A stretch of 60,968 nucleotides of DNA from Magnetococcales bacterium (GTDB lineage: Bacteria; Pseudomonadota; Magnetococcia; Magnetococcales; UBA8363): the NCBI GenBank assembly GCA_015660855.1, contig JACSDG010000045.1:1-60968 (forward strand). Reading direction: 5' to 3'. The notes below the pieces were generated by a model, which had not been told where the DNA came from, searched no databases, and saw nothing but the letters and a program-made list of their open reading frames with translations. Position 1 is the first letter of the stretch. The number at the start of each line of letters is the position of its first letter. Below, in pieces: positions 39,201 to 57,979 of this stretch. A program made the translations under genes and the position numbers.

Positions 39201-42200
39201 CTTGCGGCTGCCCAGGGTGTGCTGCGATTGGCCGAGGCTTCCGGTGTGACGCTACCGGCTGGGGCATCGGGGACCAAAACCATGACCCTCAAGGGTAGAT
39301 TGAGTGCCTTGAACAGTGCCTTGGCCACATTGCGCTATGCCCCGGAGCCTCAATTTAACGGTAGCGATGCCATCAAGGTGGATGTTGATGATTTGGGCAA
39401 TCTGGGGTCGGGTGGTTCCGTGACGGCCAGTGGCACGATCGTCATGACTGTCAAGCCGGTTAACGATCTACCGGTGTTTGCAGTCGTTGACAACAGGTTT
39501 ACGGTGGACGAAAACAAAGCGACGGGGACGATTGTGGGATCGGTGAGTGCCACCGACATTGAAAAGGATGTCATTACCTACGACATCACCAAGGGCAATC
39601 TGGGCAACGCCTTTACCATTGACTCCGGCACCGGACAGATTACCGTCAACAAGGATGCCAAACTGGATTTTGAGAAAGACCCGGTCTACAACCTGGAGGT
39701 TGCAGCCAAGGATGGGGGTTCACAGGTCGGGGCGATTCCGGCCAAGGTGCTCATCCAGATTAGCAATGTCAATGAACCACCGGTCCTGAGCCTCCCCCAA
39801 GCCATTAGTGCCCTGGAGGATACGATTAAACCCATCACAGATATTGGCATCAGCGACCCCGATTTGTCCGACACCAGTACCGGAGTCATCAAGCTGACCC
39901 TTTCAGTGGAAAGAGGTACCCTTTCCACCCGTGCTGATCATAGTCTGTCTGAGAAAGCGTTGGTATTGACGGACACTCTGGCCAATGTGCGCAAGGAATT
40001 GGGAAAACTGAACTATCGTGGAGGAGCCAGTTATTTTGGGGCCGATATCCTGACATTGAGGTTGGATGACCAGGGCAACACGGGGTCGGGGACTGCGAAC
40101 ATTGTTACCGGGACGGTGGCCATTACGGTGCTGGCGGTCAACGATATTCCCACCATGACCTCCATTGCCGATGTGACCATCGACGAGGATAAATCGGCGG
40201 GTCCGCTGTCCTTTCAGGTGGGGGATATTGACAATCTTCCCAGTGATTTGACGGTGACCGCCGCATCGTCCAACACCGATCTGGTCCCTGTGGCCAACGT
40301 GGTGTTTTCCGGGAAAGACGCCGATCGGACCTTGACGGTGACTCCGGTTGCCAACCGGTTTGGCACGGCGGTCATCACTTTGACCGTGGCTGACACGAGC
40401 ACTCCCCCCGGGTCAACGACGGCCAGCTTTACGTTGACGGTCAAACCGGTCGCGGACAAACCGGCGGTGACGGCGGCCAGTACGACCGAGGATGTTCAGA
40501 CGGTATCGGGATTGGTCATCAGTCGCAGCAGCGTCGATGGCGATGAGGTGACCCATTGGCGGATTGCCAACATAGTGAATGGCCTGCTTTACAAGAAGGA
40601 TGGCACGACGGCTATCAATGAAGGTGATTTCATTACAGCGGCAGAGGGAACGGCGAGCTTGCGGTTTACGCCGTCGACGGATTTGAATTCCGAAGCCAGT
40701 ACCTTTGGTTTTGATGTGTATGGTGCCACTGCCACCGCCCTAACCAGTACCGGGTCGGAAAAGGCTACGGCTGTCATTACGGTAACCAGCGTTAATGATG
40801 CCCCTGTGATCACCCTGCCGTCCAACCCGGTGGTCAACGAAGACACCAACTTGGAAATTGTGGGATTGCGGATTACCGACGTTGATGCCGGAAGCTCTGC
40901 GGTGCAGGTCACTTTGATGGTGAACAAAGGGATCTTGACCTTGAGCGAAGCTGTCGGAGTCACGATTGATTCCGGTGCCAGTGGTTCCGGGCTGATCGTC
41001 ATGTCGGGCACGGTGACCATGATCAACAACGCTTTGGCCAAGTTGATCTACAAAGGCAACGCCAATGCCTATGGCAACGATTCTCTGAGCGTCAAGGTCA
41101 GTGATAAGGGTTATACGGGAGCCGATGGTGCGGTATTGACCGATGAAGAGACTTTGACGATTTCGGTGGTGGCGGTGAATGATGCCGCAGTGATTACTCC
41201 CGCAACGACCGCGAAAACGTTCACTGAAGGCAATGCGGTGGGTAACAATACCCCTGTTAACGTGGATACGGGTCTTTCAATCAGCGATGTGGACAGTTCC
41301 AATCTGCAAGGTGCCACCATCACCATCAGCAATGGTTATGACGCGGGCAAGGATGTTTTGGATTTTTCCAATACCGCCAGTATTACCAAAAGCTGGGATG
41401 CAGGTACCGGAGTGCTGACGCTTACGGGTTCTGCAGGGGTTTCCGATTATCAGGCGGCTTTGCGGGAGGTCACCTATACTTCGACCAGTGATGATCCGGC
41501 GGCGGGTACCCGAACGATAACCATCAAGGTCAATGATGGTACCGATGACAGCCTCGCCGCCACCTATTCTGTTACCGTGGTGCCGGTGAATGATCCCCCG
41601 ACCCTGACGGCGGGTGTGTCGTTGAGCTATACCGAAAACGATGTGGCAACCTCGTTCGACACCACGTTCACCCTTGCCGACCTGGACAACGCTACGATGG
41701 CAGGGGCGACGGTGGTCATCAGCAGTGGTTATCAGAACGATGCTGATGGTGCCGACATCCTGGCTTTTACCAACACCAGTAGCATTACCGGCAGTTGGAA
41801 TGCCGTCAGTGGTCAATTGACGCTGACCGGGTCCGCCAGTAAAACAGCCTATGTCGCGGCACTCAAGTCGATTACCTATTTTCATAATGGGGATAATCCC
41901 TTGACCCCCGCGCGTACCATTTCCACGACAATCAACGATGGTACGGACAGTTCGACGACCGTGACCAGCACGGTGACCATGACGGCGGTCAATGATCCTC
42001 CGGCAATTACGGCTACGGCCAGTGTTACATACAACGAGGGGATCGATGCCACTCTGAACCAGGCGACGGTGGTGGATGCTGGAGTTACCGTGACCGATGC
42101 CGAACGTAATACCGTCACGGGGGCGTCGATTGCCATCAGCACCAATTATGTCAATGGCGAGGATGTTTTGATCTTTCCCGCGAGTATGGGAGACATTGTT

Positions 42201-45200
42201 GCGGATACGGGCAATGGCAGCGATGGCGGCATTGCCGGATGGAATGCCAGTACCGGGGTTTTAAAATTGACCGGGTCGGCGACTGCGGCGCAATATCAGG
42301 CGGCCCTTGCTACGGTCCAGTACAATAACCTGGACAGTGACAGTCCGACCGCTTCAGCCCGTACCATCTCCTTCTACGCCACCGATACGGCACAAGGTTC
42401 GGCGGCTACGGTGCAGGTGACCGTGGTTCCGAAAAACGATTCGCCGACTTTGACCGGAGGGGGATCGCCGCTGACGACTTACACCGAAGACAGTCCGACC
42501 AGCAAGCATGCCGATCTCATCGATAACGGTATTGTGGTTGCCGATGTGGACAACACCAACATAACCACATTGGACCAGGGAAAGGATGTTTTGGCGTTCA
42601 GCAGCAGTTATTCCTCTTCCAACATCACGGGCAGCTTTAGTTCCAATACCGGGGTGTTTACCTTGAGCGGTTCGGATACTGTGGCCAACTATCAGGCGGC
42701 GTTGCGGGCGGTGACTTATGCCAACAGCAGTGACAATCCAACATCCGGTAGCCGGGCGATTGAATTTGTGGTCAACGATGGTGCCCTTTCCAGCAGCAAG
42801 GTAACGCGAACCATTACCGTGGTGGATGTCAATGATGCACCAACGGTGGTTTCGGGGGGGACCATGACCTACACCGAAAATGCCACGCCAACCGTGGTTC
42901 ACAGTGGTGTCACCGTGGCTGATTTTGATAGCACCAACATGTCGGGGGCTACGGTCAGAGTCACCGGTAGTGATGGATCGACCCTTTATCCCGAGGATCG
43001 TCTCGCTTTTTCCAATGGTCCTGCGATTACCGGCTCCTGGGATGACACCAACAAGATTTTGACTTTATCCGGTACCGCCACGGTGGCCGAATACCAGGCG
43101 GCCCTGGCGACGGTTACGTATGCCAACTACTATGCCGGCACCAACAATTTAAACGACAATCCCACCGCTGGAACACGGACGGTAAGTTTTACAGTCAGCG
43201 ATTCTGCGCCACTGGCAAGCAATACCGCCACCGCCACGGTGACTGTGGTGGCGGTCAATGATCCACCGACGCTGACGGCTCCGACGGCCAGCATCACCTA
43301 TACCGAGGACAGTCCATCGCCGATGGTGGCGATTTCTACCGATCCCAACTCGCAGTTTACGATCTCCGACGCCGAGACCAATAACATCCAGGGGGCGACG
43401 ATTGTTGTGTCTGGGGTTCCCACGACCACCGGCAATGGTCCGGCGGATGAATTGCAGTTTTCCACCCAGAACGGGATTACCGGAACCTGGAACGGTTCTA
43501 CTCGGACTTTGACTTTGACGGGGACGACCACTCTGGCCAACTACCAGACGGCTCTCAGGTCGGTGACCTACATCAACGACAGCCAGGATCCTGGTGACGG
43601 TGCCCGGACCTTGACCTGGACCGTGACCGACGCCGGTGGTGGCAGCGCAACGGCGACCTCGGTGACCAGTACTTTGACGGTGGTTGCTGTCAATGATGCC
43701 CCCACGGTGACGAATGCCGCTTCGTCCATTACCTACATTGAGGACGAGGAGCCGGACAATACCGCCAATGAGAATCATAAAAAGGTGGTGAGTTCCACCG
43801 TGACCGTGGCCGATGTGGACAATGGAAATCTGACGGGTGCTACTGTGTCGGTGACGACCGCTACCTACCAGAACGGGCAGGATGTTTTGGCAGCCACAGT
43901 TCAGGGTAACGTAACCGCTGCGTGGGATGCCACTAACGGAATTTTGACTCTTTCCGGTACCGATACCAAGGCGACTTATGAAGCGGTTTTGCGCACGGTG
44001 ACTTATCAAAACACCAGTGACAATCCTATCACGACCACCCGTAACATTCAGTATGTGGTGAGCGATGGACAGGCTTCCAACAGTACTTCAGCGATCGTTA
44101 CCGGCAACATGCAAAGTTCGGTGGCTATTACCGCGACCAATGATGCTCCGGTGCTTGGGGGGAGTAGCGTTTTGACCTTTACCGAGCAGGCAAGCGCGGT
44201 AACGATTGCCGACCAGGCGTTATTAAGTAAACAACCGGCGGTGTTTTTAGGTTCTGGCGTGACGATTTCGGATGCGGAGAGCAACAATATTCAAGGGGCG
44301 ACGGTCCAGATTACCGGCAACTATAGCAGCAGCGAAGATCTGCTTGCTTTCTCCAACACCGCGTCGATTACCGGTTCCTGGAATTCGACTTCAGGGACGA
44401 TGACGCTGACTGGGAGTGACACCGTTGGCAATTATCAGACGGCGTTGCGTTCCATTACCTATCAAAACACCAACGTCGCTTCACCATCATCTCTGACGCG
44501 CACGGTGATTTGGATTGTTTCAGACGGCCAGGCGGAAAACTCCACCAGTAATTCTTTGTCTTCCTCCGTGATTGTGGTTCCGGTCAACGATTCACCGTTG
44601 TTGGCGGGGGGGGGGGCGGTTTTGGCTTACTCCGAGGACAATCCAAGCGAAAATCATGCGGCCATTATCGATACTTCCGTGACCATGACCGATGCGGAGA
44701 ACAGCAATGTTGCCGGCGCGACGGTGACAATATCCACCAATTATAAAGCGACCGATATTGGTAACAATACCCAGGATCTCCTTTCTTACGCAGGTAACGG
44801 TACGAATATTGGTGCGGGTGCATGGAATGCGACCACGGGTATTTTGACTTTGACTACCACGTCGGGCCAAACCGCCACCTTGGCGGATTACATGACGGCG
44901 TTAGCCAATGTCAAATATACCAACTCAAGCGAGGCGCCGGATATCGGGGCGGGTAATCAGCGCACCATCACCTGGCAGGTGACCGATGTTGGCAGCAGCA
45001 ATGCCAGCAGTTCCACCGTGACCAGTACGATTTCGGTAAGCAAAGTCAATGATATTCCCACCAATATTACGCTTAGCAACAACGGTGTCTATGCGGCTTC
45101 ACCGGTGGGAACGGTGATCGGCAGCCTGACGGTCACCGATCCCGATTTGACCGGGGATACCCATACTTTTTCGTTGCTTTCCGGGACGACTGAGTTTGCC

Positions 45201-46190
45201 GTAGTTGATGGCAAAGACACTTCGCAGTATACGGCTGGAAGTCTCACGGTGAATCTGGCCACATTGAACACCACCGGTGGCAATGGCAGTGGTGTGTATC
45301 CGGTGACGGTGCAGGTGACCGACGGCGGCGGGGCGACCTACAGTAAGGCATTCAGCATTACCGTGGTTTCGGCACCTTTTACGTCTGGCAATATGACGAC
45401 GGTGGGCGATGCTGCGGCTGTGGCCACCCTTGCCACTGGTGCCAAGACTCTCATGACGACGTTGGTGACCAACCTGGCCGGGACGACCACCCAGAGTACC
45501 ACCCTGACCAACGACAATCTCAGAACCATGATTTTGGCCAAGCTTAATCAGCAGTTGACTGGTGGGACATCGGGTTTGGAGCATGTGGGCAAGGTGATTG
45601 ACATGATGGGGGTATCGGTGACTTCGGCACCCAAGATTGAGGTGACGATGCGGGTCAAGGCGTTGAGTACCATGTATTCGCGCTTGCCTGCTTCGGTTCA
45701 GACCAGTTTTAAAAATTTGGTGGATACCATTTCTCCTTATGGGGCCAGTTACACTTTTGACGTTCGGTTGACTGTGGTGCCGAGTGTCAATACTGGCACC
45801 AGGACCATCACTTATGACAATGCCAATTCCAAATTGGAGGTGTTGCACCTGAAAATGTTACCGGACTATCTGTTTCCCACCAGTCCGTATTCGCTGGCTC
45901 TGGATACGCTTGTTTCCAGTTATAATGGTGTTTTGTCCAGTTTGAAAACCGATGGCACCCTGGCGTTTTTCCTGGGTGGTGGCGTTCCCAAGCATGTGGT
46001 TGATGCGGGGTTGGGAAGTAGCGGGGATACGGCCTATCAACAGATGGTGGCGCAGGGGGTTTGGACGGCGGCCACTGGCAATTCAAAGACGGCACCGGCT
46101 TCTGCGACGGGGGTGCGTTTGGATTATTACCTCCCGGGTAAGGTGAGTAACGTCACTTTCAATACGGGCAATATCACGCTGGTGCCGTAG
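36216..46190 (+). CDS. Giant FecR-domain, cadherin-like repeat protein, 3324 aa
   Basis: Starts MLKFLQNKWLVAILLILG with one TM/signal anchor (about 8-30). A FecR-like domain (about 75-225) reads GSVTQFKGLAFAEF...VATMGVRGTQGYI, then an Ala/Glu/Lys-rich coiled-coil stretch (about 260-480) and a low-complexity Gly/Thr/Asp part. From about residue 625 come some 17-18 tandem cadherin/Ig-like domains, each closing with VNDxPxL or VNExP (for example VNDAPTL, VNDPPTL) and often carrying ASITGSWN...LTLTGS and YQAALR.VTYxNTSDNP. The last ~300 residues are unique, ending SNVTFNTGNITLVP. No GGxGxD RTX nonapeptides were seen. Likely a surface adhesin or matrix protein, probably exported by a neighbouring or distant system; the N-terminal anchor is unusual for a type I substrate. 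Its 3' end is duplicated downstream of the dinD-like gene. Start ATG 36216 follows CAAAGG. Confidence 0.9.
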   Translation: MLKFLQNKWLVAILLILGIAVAGAFLLMVPQTSVDRKGITLDRDKLPQRQKQPGSATEEKEREAKTVETAPQRDLVGSVTQFKGLAFAEFEKEKRVLEEGAPIFQGDRIVTGGKARLILKMKDDAVIALGEDSEFLVQQYTFKVRSDNTISDDDGNKGQVELTKGVAKFTSGRLGQLKKKPFHLVTPVATMGVRGTQGYIKLNGLGDDQGIEVVTLKDEVLVWMEESKKDLSSSSGEIHFLTALISEAFAADLSKDPTSVKQNQMLAGSRKTPPVVSAAPPEKLNEAHTSTVVKKLPGKALQALSDKVAQSLVEKGAAANVEEAAKLLLEAPEVLDKMVEAAEESLMEETKAQVAEELEKQKELGSIEEEIKVAQASGDEETLAELNKKKQALQSEVFGVGPVIEGIVDEKSADKALEKTASKVEAFSEEVTKAVAEGKSLKEVIENKAREVKEEKKEKAKALGVEDLDRAKKAGESAREVAREAESKLMQEGGGKKTGTDVVPTGDGVTKSDTKGDTKPGTEGTVDQKTDGEAGKKGTEGAVDAKTDPDSGKGGDTRTPPVADTKAGAEGRDPNSVFAEAAKGSVAVDGSTSSTTSSSGNSNTTDKSAAKATPIVFNKPSVMAAQTFTIDENKPAKTVVGTLVATDPDKGNILVYTLTPGDTFTVDAATGTISTVGSLDFEKANSYALKATVTDNVPDNTKDKKVTIVTADITITVNNINEAPTLTVPAALSVDEDTPLLISGITVSDPDSVTQVAGVEGGELTVKLEAGKGVLSLAEGSGTKVLTVKSKLATLNSDLAKLRYKPDLDVNGSDTIKVDVDDPGVQGSGTPLTASGSVAITIKPINDPPVLTTSEFKFTLDENGPVGTVVGAVVATDPEKDPLTYAIAKGNQGNVFAIDAKTGQITVNKDAKIDFETASAYTLEISVTDAGTPPQTLVKGNVVVNIQINNVNEAPTLVMPGALSVDEDNDLPISGITLGDPDITATATTAEMTVKLAAAQGVLRLAEASGVTLPAGASGTKTMTLKGRLSALNSALATLRYAPEPQFNGSDAIKVDVDDLGNLGSGGSVTASGTIVMTVKPVNDLPVFAVVDNRFTVDENKATGTIVGSVSATDIEKDVITYDITKGNLGNAFTIDSGTGQITVNKDAKLDFEKDPVYNLEVAAKDGGSQVGAIPAKVLIQISNVNEPPVLSLPQAISALEDTIKPITDIGISDPDLSDTSTGVIKLTLSVERGTLSTRADHSLSEKALVLTDTLANVRKELGKLNYRGGASYFGADILTLRLDDQGNTGSGTANIVTGTVAITVLAVNDIPTMTSIADVTIDEDKSAGPLSFQVGDIDNLPSDLTVTAASSNTDLVPVANVVFSGKDADRTLTVTPVANRFGTAVITLTVADTSTPPGSTTASFTLTVKPVADKPAVTAASTTEDVQTVSGLVISRSSVDGDEVTHWRIANIVNGLLYKKDGTTAINEGDFITAAEGTASLRFTPSTDLNSEASTFGFDVYGATATALTSTGSEKATAVITVTSVNDAPVITLPSNPVVNEDTNLEIVGLRITDVDAGSSAVQVTLMVNKGILTLSEAVGVTIDSGASGSGLIVMSGTVTMINNALAKLIYKGNANAYGNDSLSVKVSDKGYTGADGAVLTDEETLTISVVAVNDAAVITPATTAKTFTEGNAVGNNTPVNVDTGLSISDVDSSNLQGATITISNGYDAGKDVLDFSNTASITKSWDAGTGVLTLTGSAGVSDYQAALREVTYTSTSDDPAAGTRTITIKVNDGTDDSLAATYSVTVVPVNDPPTLTAGVSLSYTENDVATSFDTTFTLADLDNATMAGATVVISSGYQNDADGADILAFTNTSSITGSWNAVSGQLTLTGSASKTAYVAALKSITYFHNGDNPLTPARTISTTINDGTDSSTTVTSTVTMTAVNDPPAITATASVTYNEGIDATLNQATVVDAGVTVTDAERNTVTGASIAISTNYVNGEDVLIFPASMGDIVADTGNGSDGGIAGWNASTGVLKLTGSATAAQYQAALATVQYNNLDSDSPTASARTISFYATDTAQGSAATVQVTVVPKNDSPTLTGGGSPLTTYTEDSPTSKHADLIDNGIVVADVDNTNITTLDQGKDVLAFSSSYSSSNITGSFSSNTGVFTLSGSDTVANYQAALRAVTYANSSDNPTSGSRAIEFVVNDGALSSSKVTRTITVVDVNDAPTVVSGGTMTYTENATPTVVHSGVTVADFDSTNMSGATVRVTGSDGSTLYPEDRLAFSNGPAITGSWDDTNKILTLSGTATVAEYQAALATVTYANYYAGTNNLNDNPTAGTRTVSFTVSDSAPLASNTATATVTVVAVNDPPTLTAPTASITYTEDSPSPMVAISTDPNSQFTISDAETNNIQGATIVVSGVPTTTGNGPADELQFSTQNGITGTWNGSTRTLTLTGTTTLANYQTALRSVTYINDSQDPGDGARTLTWTVTDAGGGSATATSVTSTLTVVAVNDAPTVTNAASSITYIEDEEPDNTANENHKKVVSSTVTVADVDNGNLTGATVSVTTATYQNGQDVLAATVQGNVTAAWDATNGILTLSGTDTKATYEAVLRTVTYQNTSDNPITTTRNIQYVVSDGQASNSTSAIVTGNMQSSVAITATNDAPVLGGSSVLTFTEQASAVTIADQALLSKQPAVFLGSGVTISDAESNNIQGATVQITGNYSSSEDLLAFSNTASITGSWNSTSGTMTLTGSDTVGNYQTALRSITYQNTNVASPSSLTRTVIWIVSDGQAENSTSNSLSSSVIVVPVNDSPLLAGGGAVLAYSEDNPSENHAAIIDTSVTMTDAENSNVAGATVTISTNYKATDIGNNTQDLLSYAGNGTNIGAGAWNATTGILTLTTTSGQTATLADYMTALANVKYTNSSEAPDIGAGNQRTITWQVTDVGSSNASSSTVTSTISVSKVNDIPTNITLSNNGVYAASPVGTVIGSLTVTDPDLTGDTHTFSLLSGTTEFAVVDGKDTSQYTAGSLTVNLATLNTTGGNGSGVYPVTVQVTDGGGATYSKAFSITVVSAPFTSGNMTTVGDAAAVATLATGAKTLMTTLVTNLAGTTTQSTTLTNDNLRTMILAKLNQQLTGGTSGLEHVGKVIDMMGVSVTSAPKIEVTMRVKALSTMYSRLPASVQTSFKNLVDTISPYGASYTFDVRLTVVPSVNTGTRTITYDNANSKLEVLHLKMLPDYLFPTSPYSLALDTLVSSYNGVLSSLKTDGTLAFFLGGGVPKHVVDAGLGSSGDTAYQQMVAQGVWTAATGNSKTAPASATGVRLDYYLPGKVSNVTFNTGNITLVP

Positions 46191-47566: not shown

Positions 47567-47971
47567 TTACCGGATCCATTCTACGTGTACCAGCCCTTGA
47601 GCAACCAACGGATCCAGTTCATGGTGATCAGCACTGACCAGTTTGAAACTTCTGGTCTCGGCGATACCCAAGGCGATGGCATCTGCCAGAGAAAGCTTTC
47701 CCTGTGCTTTCCATCGGGCTGAAGCTATCATTTCCGATTCGGTCATGGACCACAATATTTCAATACCCGCAGAGCGAACCAGTCTCAGGACCATCCCCGC
47801 AGCGTTTCCCTGCCGGTTGCGCCTCACAGCGTCGTAAGCGACTTCCAGAACATTGACAATGCTCATGAATATCGGAGATTCGCTGCCGAGCAAGGAGTCT
47901 ACCATATCGGCTCCTGGTTCGTCGTTCAACAAGGCCAACAGGGCGCAGGCATCCAGAAGGTACCCATTCAT
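47567..47971 (-). CDS. PIN-domain toxin (VapC family)
   Basis: 134 residues, the usual VapC size. PIN acidic residues: D at LLDACALLALLNDE (about 7), E in VNVLEVAYD, and D/D in LSLADAIALGIAE and LVSADHHELD. VapC toxins are Mg-dependent RNases that stop translation when their antitoxin is lost. The gene begins 2 bases after the antitoxin stop, as in type II operons. The pair is flanked by dispersed repeats. The target RNA is unknown. Confidence 0.9.
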   Translation of the reverse strand: MNGYLLDACALLALLNDEPGADMVDSLLGSESPIFMSIVNVLEVAYDAVRRNRQGNAAGMVLRLVRSAGIEILWSMTESEMIASARWKAQGKLSLADAIALGIAETRSFKLVSADHHELDPLVAQGLVHVEWIR

Positions 47972-47973
47972 TA

Positions 47974-48189
47974 TCAGCTTTCCAACGCAACTTCAGCGTC
48001 TTTGGACGCAATAAATTCATCGACGTTGGACAACATGCCTTTCATGGCACCGCGAACACGTTGCGGTGCTGCGGTAAATGTCCCCTTTGGCAAACGCAGT
48101 ATCACCAAGTGTTCCGCCTCTTCAAAGACGACTGGCTCCAGGGGTTTGATCGCACCGTTGATACAAACGGCTTCGATGGCTTTGATCAT
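47974..48189 (-). CDS. Antitoxin of the PIN toxin (DUF104-like)
   Basis: 71 residues from ATG 48189, with a perfect GGGAGGTGAATTC ribosome site; the frame open to 48297 lacks that. MIKAIEAVCINGAIKPLEPVVF and HLVILRLPKG match the small DUF104/AF2212-like antitoxin strand pattern (xxIxAVYENGVLKPLEPL). The C-terminus (GAMKGMLSNVDEFIASKDAEV) would wrap the toxin. It probably also represses the operon's own promoter, but its DNA-binding fold is not a classic AbrB. Confidence 0.85.
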   Translation of the reverse strand: MIKAIEAVCINGAIKPLEPVVFEEAEHLVILRLPKGTFTAAPQRVRGAMKGMLSNVDEFIASKDAEVALES

Positions 48190-48344
48190 GAATTCACCTC
48201 CCTTGGTTCCTGTCCTGTGGAATACCCATTGCGCTCCAATCATCCCACATAAGTTTGCCAACGACACGGATATTTCCAAGATCTGGTTCGCTTCCATTTT
48301 GTTCGGAATTGGGGGGCTGGAGTGCCCAGAAGGAACACCTTCGG

Positions 48345-48491: not shown

Positions 48492-49664
48492 ATGATGAAA
48501 ACTTTTGTGGATGACAAGGATCAAACCAGTGTCAGCCGGATAGTCTATCTGCTCTTCCGCCTGGATGTGGGGGGATTGGAAACGGTCGTCGTCAACCTGA
48601 TCAATCATCTTCCCAGGGATCGTTACGAACATCACGTCATCGCCTTGACCCAATGCGGAACCTTCAAACAAAGGATTCAACATGCGGGTGTGCATTTTTA
48701 CGACCTTGACAAAAAGGCTGGCAAGGATTGGTTAGTATGGTTCAAACTATTAAAACTTTTAAAAAAAATAAAACCCGATTTGGTCCATACCTTCAACATT
48801 GGTACCCTGGAAGGGGTGGTCCCCGCTTTTTTTGCGGGTCGTCCCGTCACCATCCATGCCGAACATGGACGTGACACTTCCGATCCCCATGGAGAAAACC
48901 GTACCTACAGACTGCTTAGAAAAATTCTTAGCCCGTTGGTTGATGTTTTTGTCTGTGTTTCCAGGGATCTGCAATCGTGGCTGATCCATCGGGTTGCCAT
49001 TCCCGCAGCCAAAGTTCACCTGATCATCAACGGCACCGATACCCAACGTTTTATCCCTGGAGCAAAACCCCCTCTGCCGCCTCCCGGTTTTGCCAGCGAC
49101 AGCGACTTTGTTATCGGCAGCGCAGGCAGGCTCTGGCCCATCAAGGATCATGGCAATCTGGTAACGGCCCTGGCCAAACTTGGCCAACACGATCCCGATG
49201 GATTCAAGCGTTGCCGCCTGATACTCATCGGTGACGGTCCTAAGCGTCTTGAAATGGAACAATTGGCCCGGCATCTGGGCGTCGCCGACAAGTTATGGAT
49301 CACCGGCTGGCGCGATGATGTGGCGCAACTCTTGCGGTGTCTGGATCTGTTTGTCCTTCCCTCCCAGGCCGAAGGGACACCATTGACCATCCTGGAAGCC
49401 ATGGCCACCGGGCTGCCGGTGGTGGCCACACGGGTGGGAGGCGTGGCCGATCTGGTCCAGGAGGGTCATACCGGAACCCTGGTGCCGCCAAGTGACCCCG
49501 AAGCCTTGGCCCAGGCCATTTTGCGGCACCTCCACGACCCCCAATGGTCGAAAAACCTGGGGGTTGCAGGGCGCAAACGGGTCATGGCTTTGCATTCGCT
49601 GGAATCCATGGTGGAAAGCTACCATATTTTGTTCCAGAACCACTTGTTACAAAAGATAAAATAA
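48492..49664 (+). CDS. Glycosyltransferase family 4, exosortase/EPS type
   Basis: About 390 residues, GT-B fold. N-terminal RIVYLLFRLDVGGLETVVVNL and HAEHGRDTSDPHGENR look like the sugar transferase family tied to PEP-CTERM/XrtA exosortase and exopolysaccharide loci (TIGR03088-like). The C-terminal donor site has GSAGRLWPIKDHGNLV, WITGWRDDV and the EGTPLTILEAMATGLPVVATRVGG nucleotide-sugar motif. Cytoplasmic or membrane-associated; donor and acceptor unknown. It is the first gene of the plus-strand run to 56.6 kb, but no exosortase gene or PEP-CTERM sorting tail was seen in the window. Confidence 0.9.
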   Translation: MMKTFVDDKDQTSVSRIVYLLFRLDVGGLETVVVNLINHLPRDRYEHHVIALTQCGTFKQRIQHAGVHFYDLDKKAGKDWLVWFKLLKLLKKIKPDLVHTFNIGTLEGVVPAFFAGRPVTIHAEHGRDTSDPHGENRTYRLLRKILSPLVDVFVCVSRDLQSWLIHRVAIPAAKVHLIINGTDTQRFIPGAKPPLPPPGFASDSDFVIGSAGRLWPIKDHGNLVTALAKLGQHDPDGFKRCRLILIGDGPKRLEMEQLARHLGVADKLWITGWRDDVAQLLRCLDLFVLPSQAEGTPLTILEAMATGLPVVATRVGGVADLVQEGHTGTLVPPSDPEALAQAILRHLHDPQWSKNLGVAGRKRVMALHSLESMVESYHILFQNHLLQKIK

Positions 49665-49773
49665 ATTACAATTCTCTTTTTGATTTTTTTCAGTAGAAAA
49701 TGTACCCTGTCAGTGTACAGGGGTGCGTCAGGTTGGCGATTTTAACTGTTTGGGCACGAAGGACAACCAATCC

Positions 49774-50271
49774 ATGGTTGACGGTCAAGACTATCCACGG
49801 GAAGTTTTTCAACCGATCGGCAGCGAGGGTGCCGCTCCGGACACAAACCAAACCGCCCCCGACGCTGCCAGATTGGTGCGACGGCGTTTGCTCCTGAAAG
49901 GGATTGCCGCCGGTGTTCCAGCCATTGTCACCCTGCAAAGCGGTGCCGCCCTGGCCGCTACCAGCATCACCCCCCAGTGCATCACCCCCAACGGACCTTC
50001 GTTTGCAGGCCAACCGCGTTGTCTAACCGCCACCGCCGCCGGAACCAGTGTTTGGGTATATAAAATTGACAACGATACCGTTTGGGGGGGGGGAACTCCT
50101 GACGGGCCATGTGCTGGCGGTCAATACGGGGCTGTTTACGTCGATAATGATGGCGCGATCAACACCTCCTCCCCCAATTATGGCGCAACCAACACGACCA
50201 CCAATACCCAACCTGTGGCTGGATATTACGCCATAACCAAATCCTGCTGGTCTTCCTTTTACTGGCCCTGA
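49774..50271 (+). CDS. Tat-signal secreted cysteine-rich protein, 165 aa
   Basis: From ATG 49774 (GAAGGA ribosome site; the open frame begins at 49723). N-terminus about 45 residues of unknown character, then RRRLLLKGIAAGVPAIVTLQ, a Tat-type signal (RRxLLK) with a hydrophobic core and a likely AxA cleavage site. The mature part, about 90 residues, has four to five Cys, and many Thr/Gly/Asn/Pro (GTSVWVYKIDNDTVWGGGTPDG). No family recognised. It is 12 bases before a PqqD-like gene and shares the direction of the kinase/amidotransferase genes, so it could be their substrate. Confidence 0.65.
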   Translation: MVDGQDYPREVFQPIGSEGAAPDTNQTAPDAARLVRRRLLLKGIAAGVPAIVTLQSGAALAATSITPQCITPNGPSFAGQPRCLTATAAGTSVWVYKIDNDTVWGGGTPDGPCAGGQYGAVYVDNDGAINTSSPNYGATNTTTNTQPVAGYYAITKSCWSSFYWP

Positions 50272-50283
50272 CAACTTGTCCGC

Positions 50284-50622
50284 ATGGTTTACGCAACCTT
50301 TTCCACCAACCCATCCATACCGCCAGATAGCACCGCCGCAGCACCCGTGCCACAAAGATGGAAGCGGGGGGGCGACGTTTCTTTGCTGTTTAAACATTTT
50401 GGTAACAACAGCGTGCTTTTCAATCCCAGGTCGGGATCCACCCACTTGGTCAATGATTTGATTGTTGATATCCTTGATGCCTTGGCCTACGAACCGGCGG
50501 ATCGTCTTGAATTGTCCCGGCGACTGCAACTGGATCCCAATGAGGGCGAAACCATGGCGGAACTGGAACGAATTCTTCGCAATTTGGATCAATTGGGTCT
50601 CATTATGCCGGTAGACATGTGA
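50284..50622 (+). CDS. PqqD-like peptide chaperone (HPr-rel-A type)
   Basis: 112 residues. The first ~35 are Pro/Ala-rich; the rest fits a PqqD/RRE winged-helix fold: VSLLFKHFGNNSVLFNPRSGSTHLVNDLIVDILDALAYEPAD...LSRRLQL...ERILRNLDQLGLIMP. PqqD-type domains bind leader peptides for peptide-modifying enzymes, and a subset is annotated with HprK-related kinases. Its TGA overlaps the next gene's GTG start in GTGA. Assigned from size, fold pattern and neighbours. Confidence 0.75.
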   Translation: MVYATFSTNPSIPPDSTAAAPVPQRWKRGGDVSLLFKHFGNNSVLFNPRSGSTHLVNDLIVDILDALAYEPADRLELSRRLQLDPNEGETMAELERILRNLDQLGLIMPVDM

Positions 50623-51554
50623 ACATTGGCCAACTGTCGCCAAAGGAACTGGGCCACCATCTTCAATCAGGGGGACTCCGATGGGTCATCGGACCATTTG
50701 TCATTCATCTGCGTTCGCATGTTCCCGATTTTCCCGAGTATTTGCACAAGTTCTATGGTGAAAACCAGTTATTGATGCCTCCATGGAATGACATCGCCGA
50801 TTTTCACCTTACCTTAAATCCCCCCTTGGGTTTGCGCCGATATTGGCGACCCAAAGTTCACTTTCGTCTGGATGGCAACGCCTTTTTTACCCCCTTTCCC
50901 CTGGATCACGCCCCACCTTTGTTTGAATGGGGGCTAAACATGGCCATTGCCGCCCGTTGTAACCATTGGCTCCTGCTTCACGCAGCCGTATTGGAAAAAA
51001 ACGGTGTCGCCCTGGTGTTGCCTGGAACCCCGGGGGCGGGAAAAAGTACCCTTTGCGCTGCACTTGCGCTCCAAGGTTTTCGCCTGCTTTCCGATGAATT
51101 TGGACTCTATTGCCCCCAACAAAAATGCTTTCTGGCCAATCCGCGTCCTATTGGACTGAAAAATGAATCCATCGATGTCATCCGCGCTTTCAATTCCCAG
51201 GCGGTGCTTGGTCAGGAGTATCCCAATACCCGGAAGGGGACGGTAAGTTATCTGCAACCACCCGCCTTGAGCGTTCACAACGCCCACATAGGGGCCACAC
51301 CCGCCTGGATCGTGTTTCCCACTTTTATTGACAACCAACCCACCTGCCTGGAAAAACTCCCCCAAGCGGAAAGTTTCATGCGTCTGGCTGCCAATGCCTT
51401 CAACTATGAGACCATGGGAGTTATCGGTTTTGAGTGTGTCACGGATATTGTTCAACATTCTCTGGCGATGCAACTTCGCTTTGGCCGTTTGGAAGAAGCC
51501 GTGACACTGTTGCAGGATTTGACGCAGTCAACCAGACCCATTCCGGAAACATGA
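50619..51554 (+). CDS. HPr kinase-related kinase
   Basis: 311 residues with the C-terminal catalytic domain of HprK: Walker A LPGTPGAGKSTLCAALAL (about 142-158) after HAAVLEKNGVALVL, then the second acidic site RLLSDEFGLYCP. True HprK phosphorylates HPr Ser46; this lineage lacks the N-terminal HprK domain and lies in a PqqD/amidotransferase locus, so its target is probably a peptide, protein or sugar. Start is GTG overlapping the PqqD-like stop; stop TGA overlaps the next start (ATGA). Confidence 0.85.
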   Translation: MNIGQLSPKELGHHLQSGGLRWVIGPFVIHLRSHVPDFPEYLHKFYGENQLLMPPWNDIADFHLTLNPPLGLRRYWRPKVHFRLDGNAFFTPFPLDHAPPLFEWGLNMAIAARCNHWLLLHAAVLEKNGVALVLPGTPGAGKSTLCAALALQGFRLLSDEFGLYCPQQKCFLANPRPIGLKNESIDVIRAFNSQAVLGQEYPNTRKGTVSYLQPPALSVHNAHIGATPAWIVFPTFIDNQPTCLEKLPQAESFMRLAANAFNYETMGVIGFECVTDIVQHSLAMQLRFGRLEEAVTLLQDLTQSTRPIPET

Positions 51555-53215
51555 AACGTTCAACACCCGTGTTGTGGGCCTCCATGGGTTTGGAAAAACT
51601 TTCCAGGGGGGGCATCCATGTATTGATCATCGTCATGCGTGTGGTCCTGTTGTTTTTTCCGCAACATGGCCCAGCATGGTGCCTCCTGGGTCATCTGCTG
51701 GTGAAAAATAAACAATACGCCGATGCCTTGCCGTGTCTGAGACAAGCTTTGGAAAAAGGGTGTACAACCGCCCAGGTTCATGCGGATCTGGCCCAGGTGT
51801 ATACCCACTCCCATCGTCTCATGGCGGCGGAAAAATCATTACGTTGTGCCCTGAATATAAACCCTTCCAACCCAACCTGGTGGCTGGGTCTTGGCATCAT
51901 TCTTTCCAAACGTCAACATCGTGAGTCGGCTATCCATGCCTTTGAAAGGGCCATGCACCTTGATCCCAACAGAGTAGACCCTCTGTTTCACCTGGGATGT
52001 CTTTATCTGGAACCTGCATATGTCAATGCTCTGAAAGCCGAAGCCTTTTTCCGCCAGGCCCTCAGGATTGATCCGCATCATGAAGGTTCTTTGACCTTCC
52101 TGGGCCAGGCACTGGGCCATTTGGGGCGTCTGGATGAGGCGGCATTTCTTTATAAACAAATTCTTACTCTTTATCCCAACAATATCTTCGCCCTGGAAAA
52201 TCTGGCGATGCTTGGACGTATGCCAAAAGAAAACTTAGAGGCAAAACTGCCCGATCCTGCCCGTGGGCAACCCCATGAACTGGCATATAATTATTTTGTT
52301 ATTGCTAAAATTAATACTAAAAATAATAATCCAACGGATGCTTTTGCCTGTTATCAAACGGGCAATGCTATTATGCGCCAAAGCTTTATCTACGATATTG
52401 GCCAGGATGTCGTCCAATTCCAACACACCCAGTCGGTTTTCGACAGCGCGTTTTTCGCTGACCGTCATGAGTGGGGCGATCCTTCGGGTAAACCCATTTT
52501 TATTCTGGGAATGCCTCGTTCAGGAACTACCCTCATTGAGCAAATACTGGCCGCTCATCCCCTTTGCCACGGCGGCGGCGAACGACTCGAAATTCTGGAA
52601 CTTGTTAATTCCATGGGAATTTTTTCCCATACCTACCAGGTTTATCCAGAGGCAGCCCAGGAATTGAATGCTTATACGGTAAGAATTCTGGGACAAAGTT
52701 ATGTTCAAGGTTTGACTTTGATAAACTCCGGGGCCTCCAGAATCACCGATAAAATGCCCCATAATTTTCGTTATATTGGCTTGATTCACCTGCTCCTGCC
52801 CAATGCCCCCATCATTCATTGTCGTCGCCACCCCATGGACACCTGCCTGAGTATTTACCAACAACTGTTCGCCGATCACCATCCTTACGCCTACGACCTG
52901 ACCGAATTGGGGCAATATTATCGGATATATCACCAATTGATGCAGCATTGGCAAAAAACCTTGCCGGGACGTATGCTGGAAATTCAATATGAAGAAGTGG
53001 TAGCGCATCCAGAAAAAATGATTCGCCGCATCCTGGATCATTGCGGCCTCCCCTGGGATGAGCGATGCCTGGATTTTCACACGGTCAACCGTCAGGTGGA
53101 TACGGCAAGCTTTATCGAAGTTCGGCAACCTTTGTACCGAACTTCCGTGGGACGCTGGCAAACTTATGAAAAACAATTGCAACCGTTACGTCAGGCTTTG
53201 GGTGATGTGCTCTAG
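51551..53215 (+). CDS. TPR-repeat protein with sulfotransferase domain
   Basis: 554 residues from ATG 51551 (the open frame starts at 51434 inside the kinase gene). Residues about 1-230 carry TPR repeats (AWCLLGHLLVKNKQYADALPCLRQALEKG, WWLGLGIILSKRQHRESAIHAFERAM). The second half has the PAPS site FILGMPRSGTTLIEQILAAHP (5'-PSB motif) and a later motif IIHCRRHPMDTCLSIYQQLF (3'-PB region). It should transfer sulfate from PAPS to a peptide, protein tyrosine or sugar. The stop TAG lies inside the end of a palindromic element, so the C-terminus (GDVL) may have been set by that insertion. Confidence 0.88.
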   Translation: MKRSTPVLWASMGLEKLSRGGIHVLIIVMRVVLLFFPQHGPAWCLLGHLLVKNKQYADALPCLRQALEKGCTTAQVHADLAQVYTHSHRLMAAEKSLRCALNINPSNPTWWLGLGIILSKRQHRESAIHAFERAMHLDPNRVDPLFHLGCLYLEPAYVNALKAEAFFRQALRIDPHHEGSLTFLGQALGHLGRLDEAAFLYKQILTLYPNNIFALENLAMLGRMPKENLEAKLPDPARGQPHELAYNYFVIAKINTKNNNPTDAFACYQTGNAIMRQSFIYDIGQDVVQFQHTQSVFDSAFFADRHEWGDPSGKPIFILGMPRSGTTLIEQILAAHPLCHGGGERLEILELVNSMGIFSHTYQVYPEAAQELNAYTVRILGQSYVQGLTLINSGASRITDKMPHNFRYIGLIHLLLPNAPIIHCRRHPMDTCLSIYQQLFADHHPYAYDLTELGQYYRIYHQLMQHWQKTLPGRMLEIQYEEVVAHPEKMIRRILDHCGLPWDERCLDFHTVNRQVDTASFIEVRQPLYRTSVGRWQTYEKQLQPLRQALGDVL

Positions 53216-53528
53216 GGTGTGTTGACATTCGATAATTTATTGACATCCTCTAGAAAATTATTAAAAGAAAAAAGGGGTCTGGGGGATTGCCCCCAGGGTT
53301 TTGACTTTGCTTTTGACTTTAAATAAAAAGCTTCATTCTTTGCTTTTGACTTTGTTTTTTATTTTGTTTAAATTCAAAGACAGAGTCAAAAGAAAAATCA
53401 AAAGCGAAGAATGAAGTTTTTTATTTAAATTCAAAAACTAAAGTCAAAATCAAAACCCTGGGGGCAATCCCCCAGACCCCTTTTTTCTTTCAATGATTTA
53501 TTGACATCGAATGTCAACACGCCCTAAG
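53213..53528. repeat. Palindromic MITE-like element, ~315 bp
   Basis: The left end 'ctagggtgtgttgacattcgat' matches the reverse complement of the right end ('atcgaatgtcaacacgcccta'). Between them the two halves are complementary for much of their length: 'aaaaaaggggtctgggggattgcccccagggttttgactt' against 'aaaatcaaaaccctgggggcaatcccccagaccccttttttc', with an AT-rich centre of TTTTGACTTTG-like units. No ORF. It splits the sulfotransferase gene from the nucleotidyltransferase gene. A partial end copy occurs at 18.46 kb. Confidence 0.8.
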
Positions 53529-53578
53529 GATTTGGCCGACCCCTTGAACATTCCAGGCGGGACCATCCCGCAACGACC

Positions 53579-54688
53579 GTGAATCGATCCAACCCGCCAT
53601 TGCTGCTGCGCGTGCTGCGACAGCCGGAACTTTTTCCGGGGCTTCCGGTATCCAGCCAGGATTTGATCCTGCGTCAGGCTCGACGTACCCATCTTTTGGG
53701 ACGGCTGGCGGCTATTTTTCAGGAAAAAGGGTTGCTGGAACATTTGCGTCCGCGCGTCAATAACCATCTTATCAGTGCCTTCAATCTGGCCCAGGAGGAT
53801 CGACGCATGTTGACCTGGGAGGTCAACCGGGTAGGGCGTGCCCTGTGGAACACCGGCCTGAAAATCATTCTGCTCAAAGGGGGGGCCTACGTTTTTCTTG
53901 ATCTGTCCATGGCCAAAGGTCGGCATGTGGCCGATCTGGACATTTTGATGGAGCCAAAGGATTTTCCCCTCATTGAAGCCCGCATGGCCGAACATGGATG
54001 GAAGCAGGCCAACCTGCACCCTTACGATCAGCGTTACTACCGGGAATGGATGCACGAGCTTCCCCCTTTGAGACATCGTATTCGCATGACGGAACTGGAT
54101 ATCCACCATACCATCCTCCCCCGCACCAGTCGTCTGCAACCCGATCCCCGTCTCCTTTTCACGGCGGCACAGGAAGTGCCGGGTAACCCGATGCTCAAAA
54201 CTTTGGCCCCCACCGACCTGGTTATCCATGCGGCGGTCCATTTGTTTCATGACAACGATTTTGACAAAGGGTTACGGGGACTTTTGGATTTGGATGGTTT
54301 GTTGGATCATTGGGCTGGGGATGCCGCATTTTGGGAACAGTTGCTCCCGCGTGCCCGCCTGTTGGACCTGGTCCGTCCTTTGTCTTATGCCTTGTATTTT
54401 TGTCAAACTTTGTTGGAAAGCCCCATCCCCAAGGCGACCATGGAACAAATAGCCGCCGAACCCCAGGCACCGGGCAGAGTTGCCAGGGGGATCATGAAAC
54501 AACTCGTCACCCGGATTATGACCCCGGGCGATCCCGACCGGCTGGAGTTTTCCTCCTGGTTGGCCTGGAGTCTGCTCTATATCCGTTCCCATTGGCTGCG
54601 GATGCCTCCGGGGATGCTCGTCTCCCACCTGACCCAGAAAGGTTTACGCAGATGGCGTTTCGATGTGCGGAATCGTAGGATTGTTTGA
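53579..54688 (+). CDS. Nucleotidyltransferase family protein (NTP_transf_5-like)
   Basis: 369 residues starting GTG 53579. ILLKGGAYVFLDLSMAKGRHVADLDILM (about 99-126) is the characteristic glycine and D-x-D site (VADLDIL) of the nucleotidyltransferase_5 group, and LDIHHTILP lies further on. The same family is found beside lasso-peptide or HprK-like kinases, where it may add nucleotides or phosphates. Its end overlaps the amidotransferase start by 26 bases. No other domain. Start is GTG with a weak ribosome site, just after the palindromic element. Confidence 0.8.
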   Translation: MNRSNPPLLLRVLRQPELFPGLPVSSQDLILRQARRTHLLGRLAAIFQEKGLLEHLRPRVNNHLISAFNLAQEDRRMLTWEVNRVGRALWNTGLKIILLKGGAYVFLDLSMAKGRHVADLDILMEPKDFPLIEARMAEHGWKQANLHPYDQRYYREWMHELPPLRHRIRMTELDIHHTILPRTSRLQPDPRLLFTAAQEVPGNPMLKTLAPTDLVIHAAVHLFHDNDFDKGLRGLLDLDGLLDHWAGDAAFWEQLLPRARLLDLVRPLSYALYFCQTLLESPIPKATMEQIAAEPQAPGRVARGIMKQLVTRIMTPGDPDRLEFSSWLAWSLLYIRSHWLRMPPGMLVSHLTQKGLRRWRFDVRNRRIV

Positions 54689-56552
54689 CCTGACAGGTCA
54701 ACGCGAACCGGATCGTTCTGTTTTGGCCCGTATGAACCAAAGTCAACGGCATCGTGGACCCGATGCCGAGGGTATCCATATTGCCCCGGGGATCGGCCTT
54801 GGCCATCGGCGTCTTTCCATCATCGATCTGGAAGGGGGGAGACAACCCCTTTTTAACGAGGATGGACAGATTGCGGTGGTTTTTAATGGTGAAATCTATA
54901 ATTTCCAGGCCCTGGCCAAAGAATTGACCGCGTTGGGACATCGATTCAACAGTCGCTCCGACACGGAAATCCTGGTCCACGGCTGGGAGGCTTGGGGACC
55001 GGGGTTGACGGAACGCTTACAGGGCATGTTTGCCTTTGCCATTCACGACAATATTAAAAAAAACCTGTTTTTGGCACGCGATCCTCTGGGGATCAAACCC
55101 CTGCACTATGCCATCCTCAAAGATGGCTGGTTGGCATTCGCCTCGGAACTGAAAGGAATAACCACACATCCCAGGTTTGAGCGCATCCTGGATCCCCAGG
55201 CGGTTGAATGTTATTTCGCCTTGGGTTATGTCCCTGACCCCCTGACCCTTTTCGCCGGTGCCCACAAACTGCCGCCGGGGCACCGGCTGGAAATCAAAAC
55301 GGGCCAACCCCTGCGAGCACCCGAATGCTACTGGGATCTGGCCTTTGAACCCTGCCACCGTCTCGGCCGCCAGGAGGCACGGGAAGAATTGCTTCTACGT
55401 TTGCGGCAGTCGGTACAAAGCCATATGGTGGCGGATGTGGAACTGGCCGCCTTTTTGTCTGGGGGTGTCGATTCCAGTGCCATTGCCGTTCTCATGGCCC
55501 AATCCCAGGCGGCTCCGGTCACCGCCTGTACCGTTTCTTTTGCCGATCCCGCTTTTGATGAAACCCGTTGGGCCACCCAGGTGGCCCAACGTCATGGACT
55601 CACCCATGTGGTGGAGCAGGCCGAGCCGCATCATTTTCATCTTATGGATCGTCTGGCCTACCACCATGATGAACCGTTTGCCGACCATTCATCCCTGCCT
55701 ACCTGGATGGTCTGCGCCATGGCAAGAAAGCGAGTCAAGGTGGTTTTGTCGGGTGATGGGGGGGATGAATCCCTGGCGGGTTATGAGCGGTATCGTTTTG
55801 TCCTGGCCGAAGAAAAAATTAAATCTTTTCTTCCGCAGGGTTTACGGCGGATGATCTTTGGTCCTTTGGGCTGGTTTTATCCCAAAGGGGACCGTCTCCC
55901 GCGTTTTTTGCGGGCCAAATCAACCTTGCAATCTTTGGCCAAGGACAGCATTGACGGCTATTTCCAGGCCGTTGCCATCATGCCATGGGAATTGCGAAAG
56001 CGGCTGTATTCCCAGACCTTGCGGACTTCCCTCCAGGGATACCGGGCCGAGGAGGTATTTCGGCAACTGGCCCCTCGCGCCCCCGACCATCCTTTGGCCA
56101 GGATGCAATATTTGGATTTTAAAACTTTTCTGGCGGGACGGGTTCTTACCAAGGTGGATCGTGCCAGTATGGCCCATGGGTTGGAGGTGCGGGTACCCTT
56201 GTTGGATCATGAACTGGTGCAGTGGATGGTCAAGCTGCCTGCGGATTTTAAAATTTTCCACGGTCAGGGAAAAGCTTTGTTCAAGGAGGGGTTGGTTGAT
56301 CTTTTGGGACCGGAGTTATTGAACCGTCCCAAGATGGGTTTCGTCGCCCCTATTGCCCAATGGTTGCGTCAACCTTTGGCAGGGCGTCTTCGGGAACTTG
56401 CGATGGAGCCACGTCTTGTTACTTTGGGGGGGATGGATCGAAAGTTTCTTGAATGGATGATTGGCGAGCATCTTCGGGGAAGGCGAAACTTTAGTCAACC
56501 CCTGTGGGCTGTTATGCAGTTTGATGCCTGTTTAAAAAATGCCTTCCCCTGA
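54663..56552 (+). CDS. Asparagine-synthetase-like amidotransferase
   Basis: 629 residues. Must start at ATG 54663 because the next codon is Cys (MCGIVGLFD), the glutaminase nucleophile. The Ntn glutaminase domain has RHRGPDAEG, VFNGEIYNF and SDTEILVHGWE. The synthetase domain has the ATP motif AAFLSGGVDSSA. The family fits the exosortase/XrtA-associated amidotransferase 1 (TIGR03108-like) or a lasso-cyclase-like AsnB. Predicted role: amide or isopeptide bond formation on a capsule, peptide or protein. It overlaps the nucleotidyltransferase gene. The stop at 56552 is followed by repeats. Confidence 0.93.
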   Translation: MCGIVGLFDLTGQREPDRSVLARMNQSQRHRGPDAEGIHIAPGIGLGHRRLSIIDLEGGRQPLFNEDGQIAVVFNGEIYNFQALAKELTALGHRFNSRSDTEILVHGWEAWGPGLTERLQGMFAFAIHDNIKKNLFLARDPLGIKPLHYAILKDGWLAFASELKGITTHPRFERILDPQAVECYFALGYVPDPLTLFAGAHKLPPGHRLEIKTGQPLRAPECYWDLAFEPCHRLGRQEAREELLLRLRQSVQSHMVADVELAAFLSGGVDSSAIAVLMAQSQAAPVTACTVSFADPAFDETRWATQVAQRHGLTHVVEQAEPHHFHLMDRLAYHHDEPFADHSSLPTWMVCAMARKRVKVVLSGDGGDESLAGYERYRFVLAEEKIKSFLPQGLRRMIFGPLGWFYPKGDRLPRFLRAKSTLQSLAKDSIDGYFQAVAIMPWELRKRLYSQTLRTSLQGYRAEEVFRQLAPRAPDHPLARMQYLDFKTFLAGRVLTKVDRASMAHGLEVRVPLLDHELVQWMVKLPADFKIFHGQGKALFKEGLVDLLGPELLNRPKMGFVAPIAQWLRQPLAGRLRELAMEPRLVTLGGMDRKFLEWMIGEHLRGRRNFSQPLWAVMQFDACLKNAFP

Positions 56553-56854: not shown

Positions 56855-57793
56855 TCAAGGCTTATCGGTTGCCGGTGAGGCGGGAGTGGTGTGGTTATCC
56901 GCAAGGGCAATGAAACCCGATTTGCGTAAAATTTCCTGACCATGGCCTCCCATCACCCATTCGACAAAGGGCCGAACCAGGGGCGCGTGGTTGTCGAGGG
57001 TGTAGAAGAACAAAGGTCGCGCCAAAGGATAAAGTCCCTTGAGGGTGAAATGGGTCGTGGGAGGGACACATGCGGTCCCTTTGGCATCGTCGCGGGCGAT
57101 ACACAATGTTTTAACATCATTGGTGACCGTGGCCATGCTGGTGAAGGCGATGGCGCAGGGGGACATGGCAACCCTTTCCATCAATCTGCTGGCCTCGCGG
57201 ATGGTAATCAGAGCCGGGTGGAAATGGATATGTTCCTCGAAGACGGTTTCGCGAAAGTAGACATAGTCGCCGGAACTGTTTTTTCGCGACATTCGCAGAA
57301 TGGTATTGTCTGGGCAACCGGGAACTTCAACGCCAAGGTCAGTCCATGAGGAAAACCCATCAGCCTTGCCAAAGATGCGTGCCAGTTGCTTCATGGAGAT
57401 GCCATTGATGGGATTGGCCTTATTGACGGTGATGGACAGGGCGTCCTGACCGATGACGTGGGTTTTTGGCAGGGCACCGGAACGCTGCGAAATCAAACGA
57501 TTCTCCCTCTCCCTCAGAGGGCGGGTTGTCACGGCAATATCCACATGACCGTTGATCATGGCAGCGATGCCGTTGCCCGACCCTCCCCCATGCACCTCGA
57601 AAAAAACTCCGGGATTGTTGGTCTGATAGGTTTTTGTCCAGGCCTGCACGACCTCGATCATGGCATTGGATCCCTTGATGTGGATCCGGTTGATGCCACC
57701 CTGTCCCCCCTGGGCGTGGTTGGAGAAAAAAACCAGAATCAGGCTTGCGACCACAAAGTTTACGTATCGGAAAAACAAAGTTTGCGTAACCAT
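56855..57793 (-). CDS. PstS-like phosphate-binding protein
   Basis: About 312 residues from ATG 57793. A signal peptide is at the N-terminus (FVVASLILVFFSNHAQGG). The PBP2 fold has IKGSNAMIEVVQAWTKTYQ, VHGGGSGNGIAAMINGHVDIAV (phosphate loop and GSGxGI motif), DALSITVNKANPI and ARIFGKADGFSSWTDLG. This is the phosphate ABC binding protein branch, though such proteins also act in sensing. The open frame up to 57964 reads through a dispersed repeat (WGLRPQTPTGGDDPP), so I reject that N-terminus. No pst permease or phoU is adjacent. Confidence 0.85.
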   Translation of the reverse strand: MVTQTLFFRYVNFVVASLILVFFSNHAQGGQGGINRIHIKGSNAMIEVVQAWTKTYQTNNPGVFFEVHGGGSGNGIAAMINGHVDIAVTTRPLRERENRLISQRSGALPKTHVIGQDALSITVNKANPINGISMKQLARIFGKADGFSSWTDLGVEVPGCPDNTILRMSRKNSSGDYVYFRETVFEEHIHFHPALITIREASRLMERVAMSPCAIAFTSMATVTNDVKTLCIARDDAKGTACVPPTTHFTLKGLYPLARPLFFYTLDNHAPLVRPFVEWVMGGHGQEILRKSGFIALADNHTTPASPATDKP

Positions 57794-57814
57794 TCCGTCC
57801 CCCCCTCTTTCTTG

Positions 57815-57925
57815 AAGGTTGAAACTATTGCGGGGGTTAAGGGGGGGATCATCCCCCCCGGTGGGGGTTTGGGGGCGAAGCCCCCAAGGTTTTGTTTTCT
57901 GCCCGAAGGGTATGATGTCCAAGGG
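57815..57925. repeat. Dispersed repeat upstream of PstS-like gene
   Basis: 'aaggttgaaactattgcgggggttaagggggggatcatccccccggtgggggtttgggggcgaagcccccaaggtttt' then 'gcccgaagggtatgatg'. Most complete single copy in the window. Confidence 0.85.
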
Positions 57926-57979
57926 GACAGGGAAACCTGGCCGCAGCCGTTTTAAATTGAGCACGTAGGTGAACCCATT

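Follow-up and report, generated by a model that had tools for sequence, protein, structure and literature searches.

The window analysed here covers positions 1 to 60,968 of contig JACSDG010000045.1, part of a Magnetococcales-type assembly of 4.5 Mb that is 97.8% complete. A run of genes on the plus strand begins with a context gene for an XrtA-system family 4 glycosyltransferase (stp2; 48492-49664; TIGR03088, 472 bits, cut-off 409). This is followed by the candidate substrate gene (49774-50271; 165 aa) and by genes encoding a putative PqqD-like RRE of the HPr-rel-A system PqqD family (50284-50622; TIGR04353, 43.9 bits, cut-off 35), an HprK-related kinase A (50619-51554; TIGR04352, 345 bits, cut-off 200), an accessory TPR-sulfotransferase of 554 aa (51551-53215; PF13469, 177 bits), an NTP_transf_5 nucleotidyltransferase that is the fourth core gene (53579-54688; PF14907, 168 bits) and an AsnB-like amidotransferase of the XrtA/PEP-CTERM type (54663-56552; TIGR03108, 892.5 bits, cut-off 816.9). 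An initial annotation had named five of these genes, from PqqD to AsnB, after a glycosyltransferase of the exosortase/EPS type, and the profile scores confirm each of them at its stated position, exceeding the curated cut-off in every family for which one exists. It had also described the genes as overlapping. This is true of PqqD and the kinase (4 nt), the kinase and the sulfotransferase (4 nt) and NTP_transf_5 and AsnB (26 nt), but not of the sulfotransferase and NTP_transf_5, which are separated by a gap of 363 nt around a palindromic element (53213-53526). The most likely start of the sulfotransferase is the ATG at 51551 rather than 51434.

The palindromic element is MITE-like and is made up of nested inverted repeats, with arms of up to 60 nt that are 92% complementary and outer arms of 21 nt that are 95% complementary. 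Upstream of the cassette there is a single open frame of 3324 aa (36216-46190) with FecR and cadherin-like repeats, probably encoding a giant surface or secreted protein, and just before the glycosyltransferase, on the minus strand (47567-48297), there is a likely pair of PIN-domain toxin and AF2212-like antitoxin. A gene for a PstS-like phosphate-binding protein (56855-57964) also adjoins the cassette. The cassette adjoins pst genes and glmU/glmS in a sphingomonad locus (L204) as well, and the link with PstS may be due to chance.

The initial annotation had proposed a scan for a precursor peptide, and the search finds a candidate that it had missed, the gene at 49774-50271 in the gap between the glycosyltransferase and PqqD. 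The sequence AAGGA lies approximately 10 nt before the ATG at 49774 (a GTG start at 49723 would give 182 aa) and PqqD starts 12 nt after the end of the gene. The gene is present in a single copy in the genome and its product belongs to no family in Pfam or NCBIfam, both of which were searched. The protein consists of a twin-arginine signal peptide, RRRLLLKGIAAGVPAIVTLQSGAALA, with a conserved PxVxTLxSG motif, a core that begins ATSITPQC and has a variable middle, and a C-terminus (KSCWSSFYWP) that contains CWxSF. The twin Arg, the hydrophobic stretch and an AxA site are all present and the host genome has TatC, and these motifs suggest that the substrate is exported by Tat.

Among 29 Magnetococcales homologues, the residues R5, R6, K10, P17, T21, C37, C126 and S129 (numbered on the aligned window sequence) are invariant. 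As the candidate search required an RR/RK-like pair, the invariance of RR is in part a result of selection; the TLxS motif came out of the sequences themselves. The Ser in CWxSF corresponds to S129. The leader and the C-terminal motif have mean pairwise identities of 0.61 and 0.64, against 0.27 for the core, a precursor-like pattern with a leader much better conserved than the core. In one locus (L064, 5800-6240) the substrate is shortened to 82 aa, in which the leader, ASASTQC, two Cys residues and a C-terminal SCLDSF are retained, and it represents a natural minimal version. The model of the core looks partly folded (pLDDT 74); it is too weak to assign a fold and has no match in the PDB. The substrate could have a periplasmic function of its own.

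We compared 140 loci around the kinase, comprising a phylum set of 60 (59 from genomes of the phylum, plus the window) and 80 named loci. In about 120 of the 140, the gene immediately before PqqD or the kinase is a counterpart of the substrate: it is short, and its product has RR, a hydrophobic stretch and, in most cases, an AxA site. The loci with such a counterpart span the Alpha-, Beta- and Gammaproteobacteria and the Magnetococcales. Most of the 60 phylum-set loci have an upstream gene with RR and a hydrophobic signal; as a control, only 13 of 239 other neighbouring genes of 100-300 aa have a signal of this look (RR plus hydrophobic stretch). A six-frame search of 1.89 Mb with the pattern R[RK]...[IVLM][IVLMF]T[LM]xS[GRQ] gives 80 matches. 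Seventy-five of the matches are within 1.5 kb upstream of the kinase and on its strand, two represent a divergently placed substrate (from one genome that is present twice) and three are by chance; the leader motif is specific enough for finding further members. The cassette is also present on a sphingomonad plasmid and on a Vibrio alfacsensis plasmid, in both cases lacking the XrtA glycosyltransferase and the AsnB of TIGR03108 type; the proteins encoded upstream on these plasmids, which are annotated as hypothetical, bear signals of this kind too.

The substrate profile (A2) was compared with 48 genomes of the order and matches in 35 of the 36 that have HprK_rel_A and in none of the 12 that do not, and the lone exception (G185) is a genome that is 57% complete. 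Fisher's test for this co-occurrence gives p values of 1.9e-10 by genome and 0.0015 by genus, the genomes not being independent. There are four genomes (G022, G065, G077 and G121) with the substrate and the kinase on different contigs. In three of these the unlinked substrate (L190, L192 and L193) is still followed by PqqD, whereas in G077 (L191) it stands alone. PqqD also follows a second copy of the substrate in G181 (L194) and the divergent substrate (L055). Because PqqD mostly stays with the substrate where the kinase is elsewhere, substrate and PqqD are the tighter pair. There is good support for the substrate family, for the cassette and for the association between them, and at the level of sequence the parts, the leader motif and the genome-wide co-occurrence with the kinase are clear.

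The AlphaFold2 model of PqqD (pLDDT 83) has its best PDB matches in the lasso RREs TbiB1 and TfuB1 with leader peptide (TMt 0.71), followed by RRE domains of a sactipeptide enzyme, McbBCD, MccB, ThcOx and NisB. The E-values are modest (0.006 at best), and the predicted fold is that of an RRE closest to those of lasso systems. The kinase, the only HprK-related kinase A in the genome, has a Walker A motif (GTPGAGKS), and H121, K142, D159 and E160 are invariant over 20 homologues. These four are comparable with the His-Lys-Asp-Asp set that PMC9266682 reports for lasso kinases. Only the HprK core is shared with the characterised enzymes.

NTP_transf_5 has a GG...DLD motif at residues 101-121 and no sequence relatives in the PDB. 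It begins just after the kinase in 40 of the 60 loci of the phylum set and in 70 of the 80 named loci, and it is single copy in all 13 genomes tested that have the module and absent from all four tested that lack it. Where it is unlinked from the kinase, AsnB stays joined to it. The sulfotransferase keeps the PAPS motif GMPRSGTT and an R.P.D motif. It is found in 12 of the 60 phylum-set loci, directly after HprK in 11, and only in some Magnetococcales. Replacement of NTP_transf_5 by the sulfotransferase in the genus-mates L066, L067, L072 and L073 was considered and rejected, because genus-mates of that kind have a single-copy NTP_transf_5 elsewhere that is still joined to AsnB. The AsnB of TIGR03108 type is paired with NTP_transf_5 in the Magnetococcales and absent from the cassette outside them, and the XrtA glycosyltransferase is upstream of the cassette in 25 of the 60 phylum-set loci; both belong to the Magnetococcales arrangement. 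The window's own genome (G000) thus has the XrtA-named glycosyltransferase and amidotransferase, yet an exosortase was not found in it.

There are two types of substrate across all unique substrates. Unique sequences were used for the counts of substrate type and leader register, since the locus sets hold some Magnetococcales genomes twice, as whole genomes and as named contigs. A C-terminal C..S[FLIVM] is present behind 35 of 48 TLxSG leaders (0.7 expected from shuffling) and behind all 10 sphingomonad leaders (0.1 expected), but behind none of the 38 TLxSRP leaders of beta- and gammaproteobacteria. These last substrates also lack CWxSF, so one C-terminal acceptor motif cannot be shared by all. 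There is a Ser at mature position +3 in 66% of 51 Pro-anchored leaders, and in sphingomonads a Ser lies at the same distance of 15 residues although the AxA site is shifted by two. A single acceptor site for all substrates was considered and rejected: CWxSF is limited to one leader type, and Ser3 is found in 66% of Pro-anchored leaders, with a Ser at an equal distance in the sphingomonads. A gene for a trypsin-like serine protease (family F12) recurs near the cassette in loci outside the Magnetococcales (L040, L042, L043, L056, L068, L078, L082 and L083) and is possibly a partner of the second substrate type.

Taken together, the data make it probable that the locus is a modification cassette of four genes (substrate, RRE, HprK-type kinase and NTP_transf_5), with an accessory sulfotransferase and an AsnB-type amidotransferase in an exopolysaccharide gene context, and that the substrate is modified and then exported by Tat. 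The protein of 49774-50271 would be made with its twin-arginine signal peptide, and the PqqD-like RRE would bind the PxVxTLxSG of this peptide in the cytoplasm, the Tat signal serving as recognition leader, so that export would wait for modification. The HprK-like kinase would phosphorylate a core Ser, for which the two likeliest candidates are mature Ser3, as in linear polyphosphorylated peptides (LPP), and the invariant Ser of CWxSF, as in paeninodin-type lasso peptides. NTP_transf_5 may then attach a group to this phosphate, just as PsmN attaches a hexose in pseudomycoidin, and the sulfotransferase (in this genus) and the amidotransferase (in the order) may add or prepare further decoration. 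Finally, Tat would export the product and signal peptidase would remove the leader. We infer the use of Tat, the phosphorylation, its site, the later chemistry and any role in exopolysaccharide from these comparisons. The Tat signal peptide would also explain how the system can do without a B2 protease and a dedicated transporter.

Some of the gene context could be read differently. XrtA-type glycosyltransferase and amidotransferase genes flank the cassette in the Magnetococcales, and polysaccharide-type genes lie upstream in some other loci too, as would be expected if the Tat protein were an ordinary periplasmic partner in exopolysaccharide synthesis and PqqD, HprK, NTP_transf_5 and AsnB acted on sugars, lipid carriers or a regulator. 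We consider this unlikely, as sphingomonads have the four genes without such glycosyltransferases, most substrates encoded away from the kinase are still paired with PqqD, conservation is much higher in the leader than in the core and PqqD has a predicted RRE fold. An RRE-type protein encoded beside a protein with a Tat signal might instead be a Tat proofreading chaperone, with the kinase regulating export or stability of the Tat protein and no decorated product being made. HprK relatives can indeed be regulatory, but the constant presence of NTP_transf_5 as fourth partner suggests that a phosphate is elaborated, and makes this reading very unlikely.

The initial annotation had called the locus lasso-like or exosortase-like, while noting that a B2 protease, an exporter and an exosortase were missing. 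Their absence is borne out, with the B2 protease family PF13471 and the exosortase family PF09721 undetected throughout this 97.8%-complete genome and no transporter among the cassette genes, and neither label can be kept. PqqD, an HprK-type kinase, an NTP transferase and AsnB are jointly found in paeninodin-type clusters (PMC9266682, PMC13381572), so that a degenerate or unusual lasso cluster could be imagined, with AsnB as cyclase and a short hidden precursor. This is hardly credible given that the genome has no B2 gene, that the score of AsnB is 219 bits as a lasso cyclase (NF033535, cut-off 525) but 892 as an XrtA amidotransferase, and that the cassette outside the Magnetococcales has no AsnB of this type. 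Two XrtA-named genes over cut-off could also indicate exosortase/PEP-CTERM sorting machinery with borrowed kinase genes; with no exosortase in the genome and substrates that end in CWxSF or other sequences rather than PEP-CTERM, this is highly improbable. The grouping of AsnB with XrtA enzymes was half of what the initial annotation had said would count against it; the other half, a kinase/PqqD pair with no peptide role, is contradicted by strong indications of a protein substrate. Its general suggestion, an unusual set of parts for modifying a peptide or capsule, agrees with the RRE fold, the substrate candidate and the exopolysaccharide-type context.

We lean, by a small measure, towards a broader proposal in which the cassette represents a widespread RiPP-like class of the Pseudomonadota. 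A Tat signal would be the leader read by the RRE, the kinase and NTP_transf_5 (in some lineages with the sulfotransferase and amidotransferase) would build a phosphate-linked group, and Tat would export the product to the envelope or the extracellular polysaccharide. If this is true, the Tat signal peptide also serves as a RiPP leader, export itself becomes the step at which modification is checked, and the RRE-guided phosphorylated products that have been described for Bacillota reach a large part of the Pseudomonadota.

The kinase and PqqD over cut-off identify the locus as the HPr-rel-A system (NCBIfam TIGR04352 and TIGR04353). NCBIfam names this system, but in the sources searched we found no statement of what it modifies, no paper on HPr-rel-A, TIGR04352 or TIGR04353, and no NCBIfam model that matches the substrate. 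The present analysis adds NTP_transf_5 as a fourth core enzyme, the Tat-leader motif, a probable substrate and two candidate acceptor sites. The flanking glycosyltransferase and amidotransferase are shared with XrtA exopolysaccharide loci (TIGR03088 and TIGR03108), but here there is no exosortase, and the kinase, PqqD and substrate lie between the two XrtA genes.

An RRE and an HprK-type kinase acting on Ser are also found in lasso systems of the paeninodin/pseudomycoidin type, as is an NTP-transferase-type protein, PsmN, which in pseudomycoidin was linked to the hexose on phosphoserine (PMC9266682). The cassette differs from these in having no B2 protease, no lasso cyclase and a long protein substrate. 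As in RRE-dependent RiPP systems, what appears from sequence to be a precursor with conserved leader and variable core lies beside an RRE and modifying enzymes.

LPP clusters, described as restricted to Bacillota, contain an RRE, an HprK-like kinase, an NTP transferase, a SipW-like peptidase and a transporter, and are found in polysaccharide loci (Nat Commun 2026, PMC13381572). Their precursors have 35-200 aa with a conserved N-terminus and a variable C-terminus, the kinase polyphosphorylates core Ser3, and deleting LppN had no effect when tested (PMC13381572). The locus described here resembles them in its discrete RRE (TIGR04353, predicted fold), in its HprK-like kinase and NTP transferase in one cluster (LppN being likened by enzyme class name), in the size, conserved N-terminus and variable C-terminus of its putative precursor and in its polysaccharide-type gene context. 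It differs in that the Tat signal would serve as leader, the host belongs to the Pseudomonadota, no MsbA-like transporter is among the cassette genes and the cluster in the window has no archaeal-type signal peptidase (SpI), the closest match in the genome being one of 22 bits, below cut-off and on another contig. Against the LPP leader motif YxxPxVLxHQxIxFETxxS (PMC13381572), aligned by the published consensus only, Pro-13, V/I-11, L/V-10 and often Ser3 match, whereas His-8 and the FET end do not and Tyr-16 is mostly Ala. Since binding by the LPP RRE (LppB) requires Tyr-16 and Pro-13 (PMC13381572), the contacts of the RRE must differ here. Although it departs from LPP clusters in peptidase and transporter and from lasso clusters in B2 protease and cyclase, the cassette would work like an LPP or paeninodin-type tailoring system.
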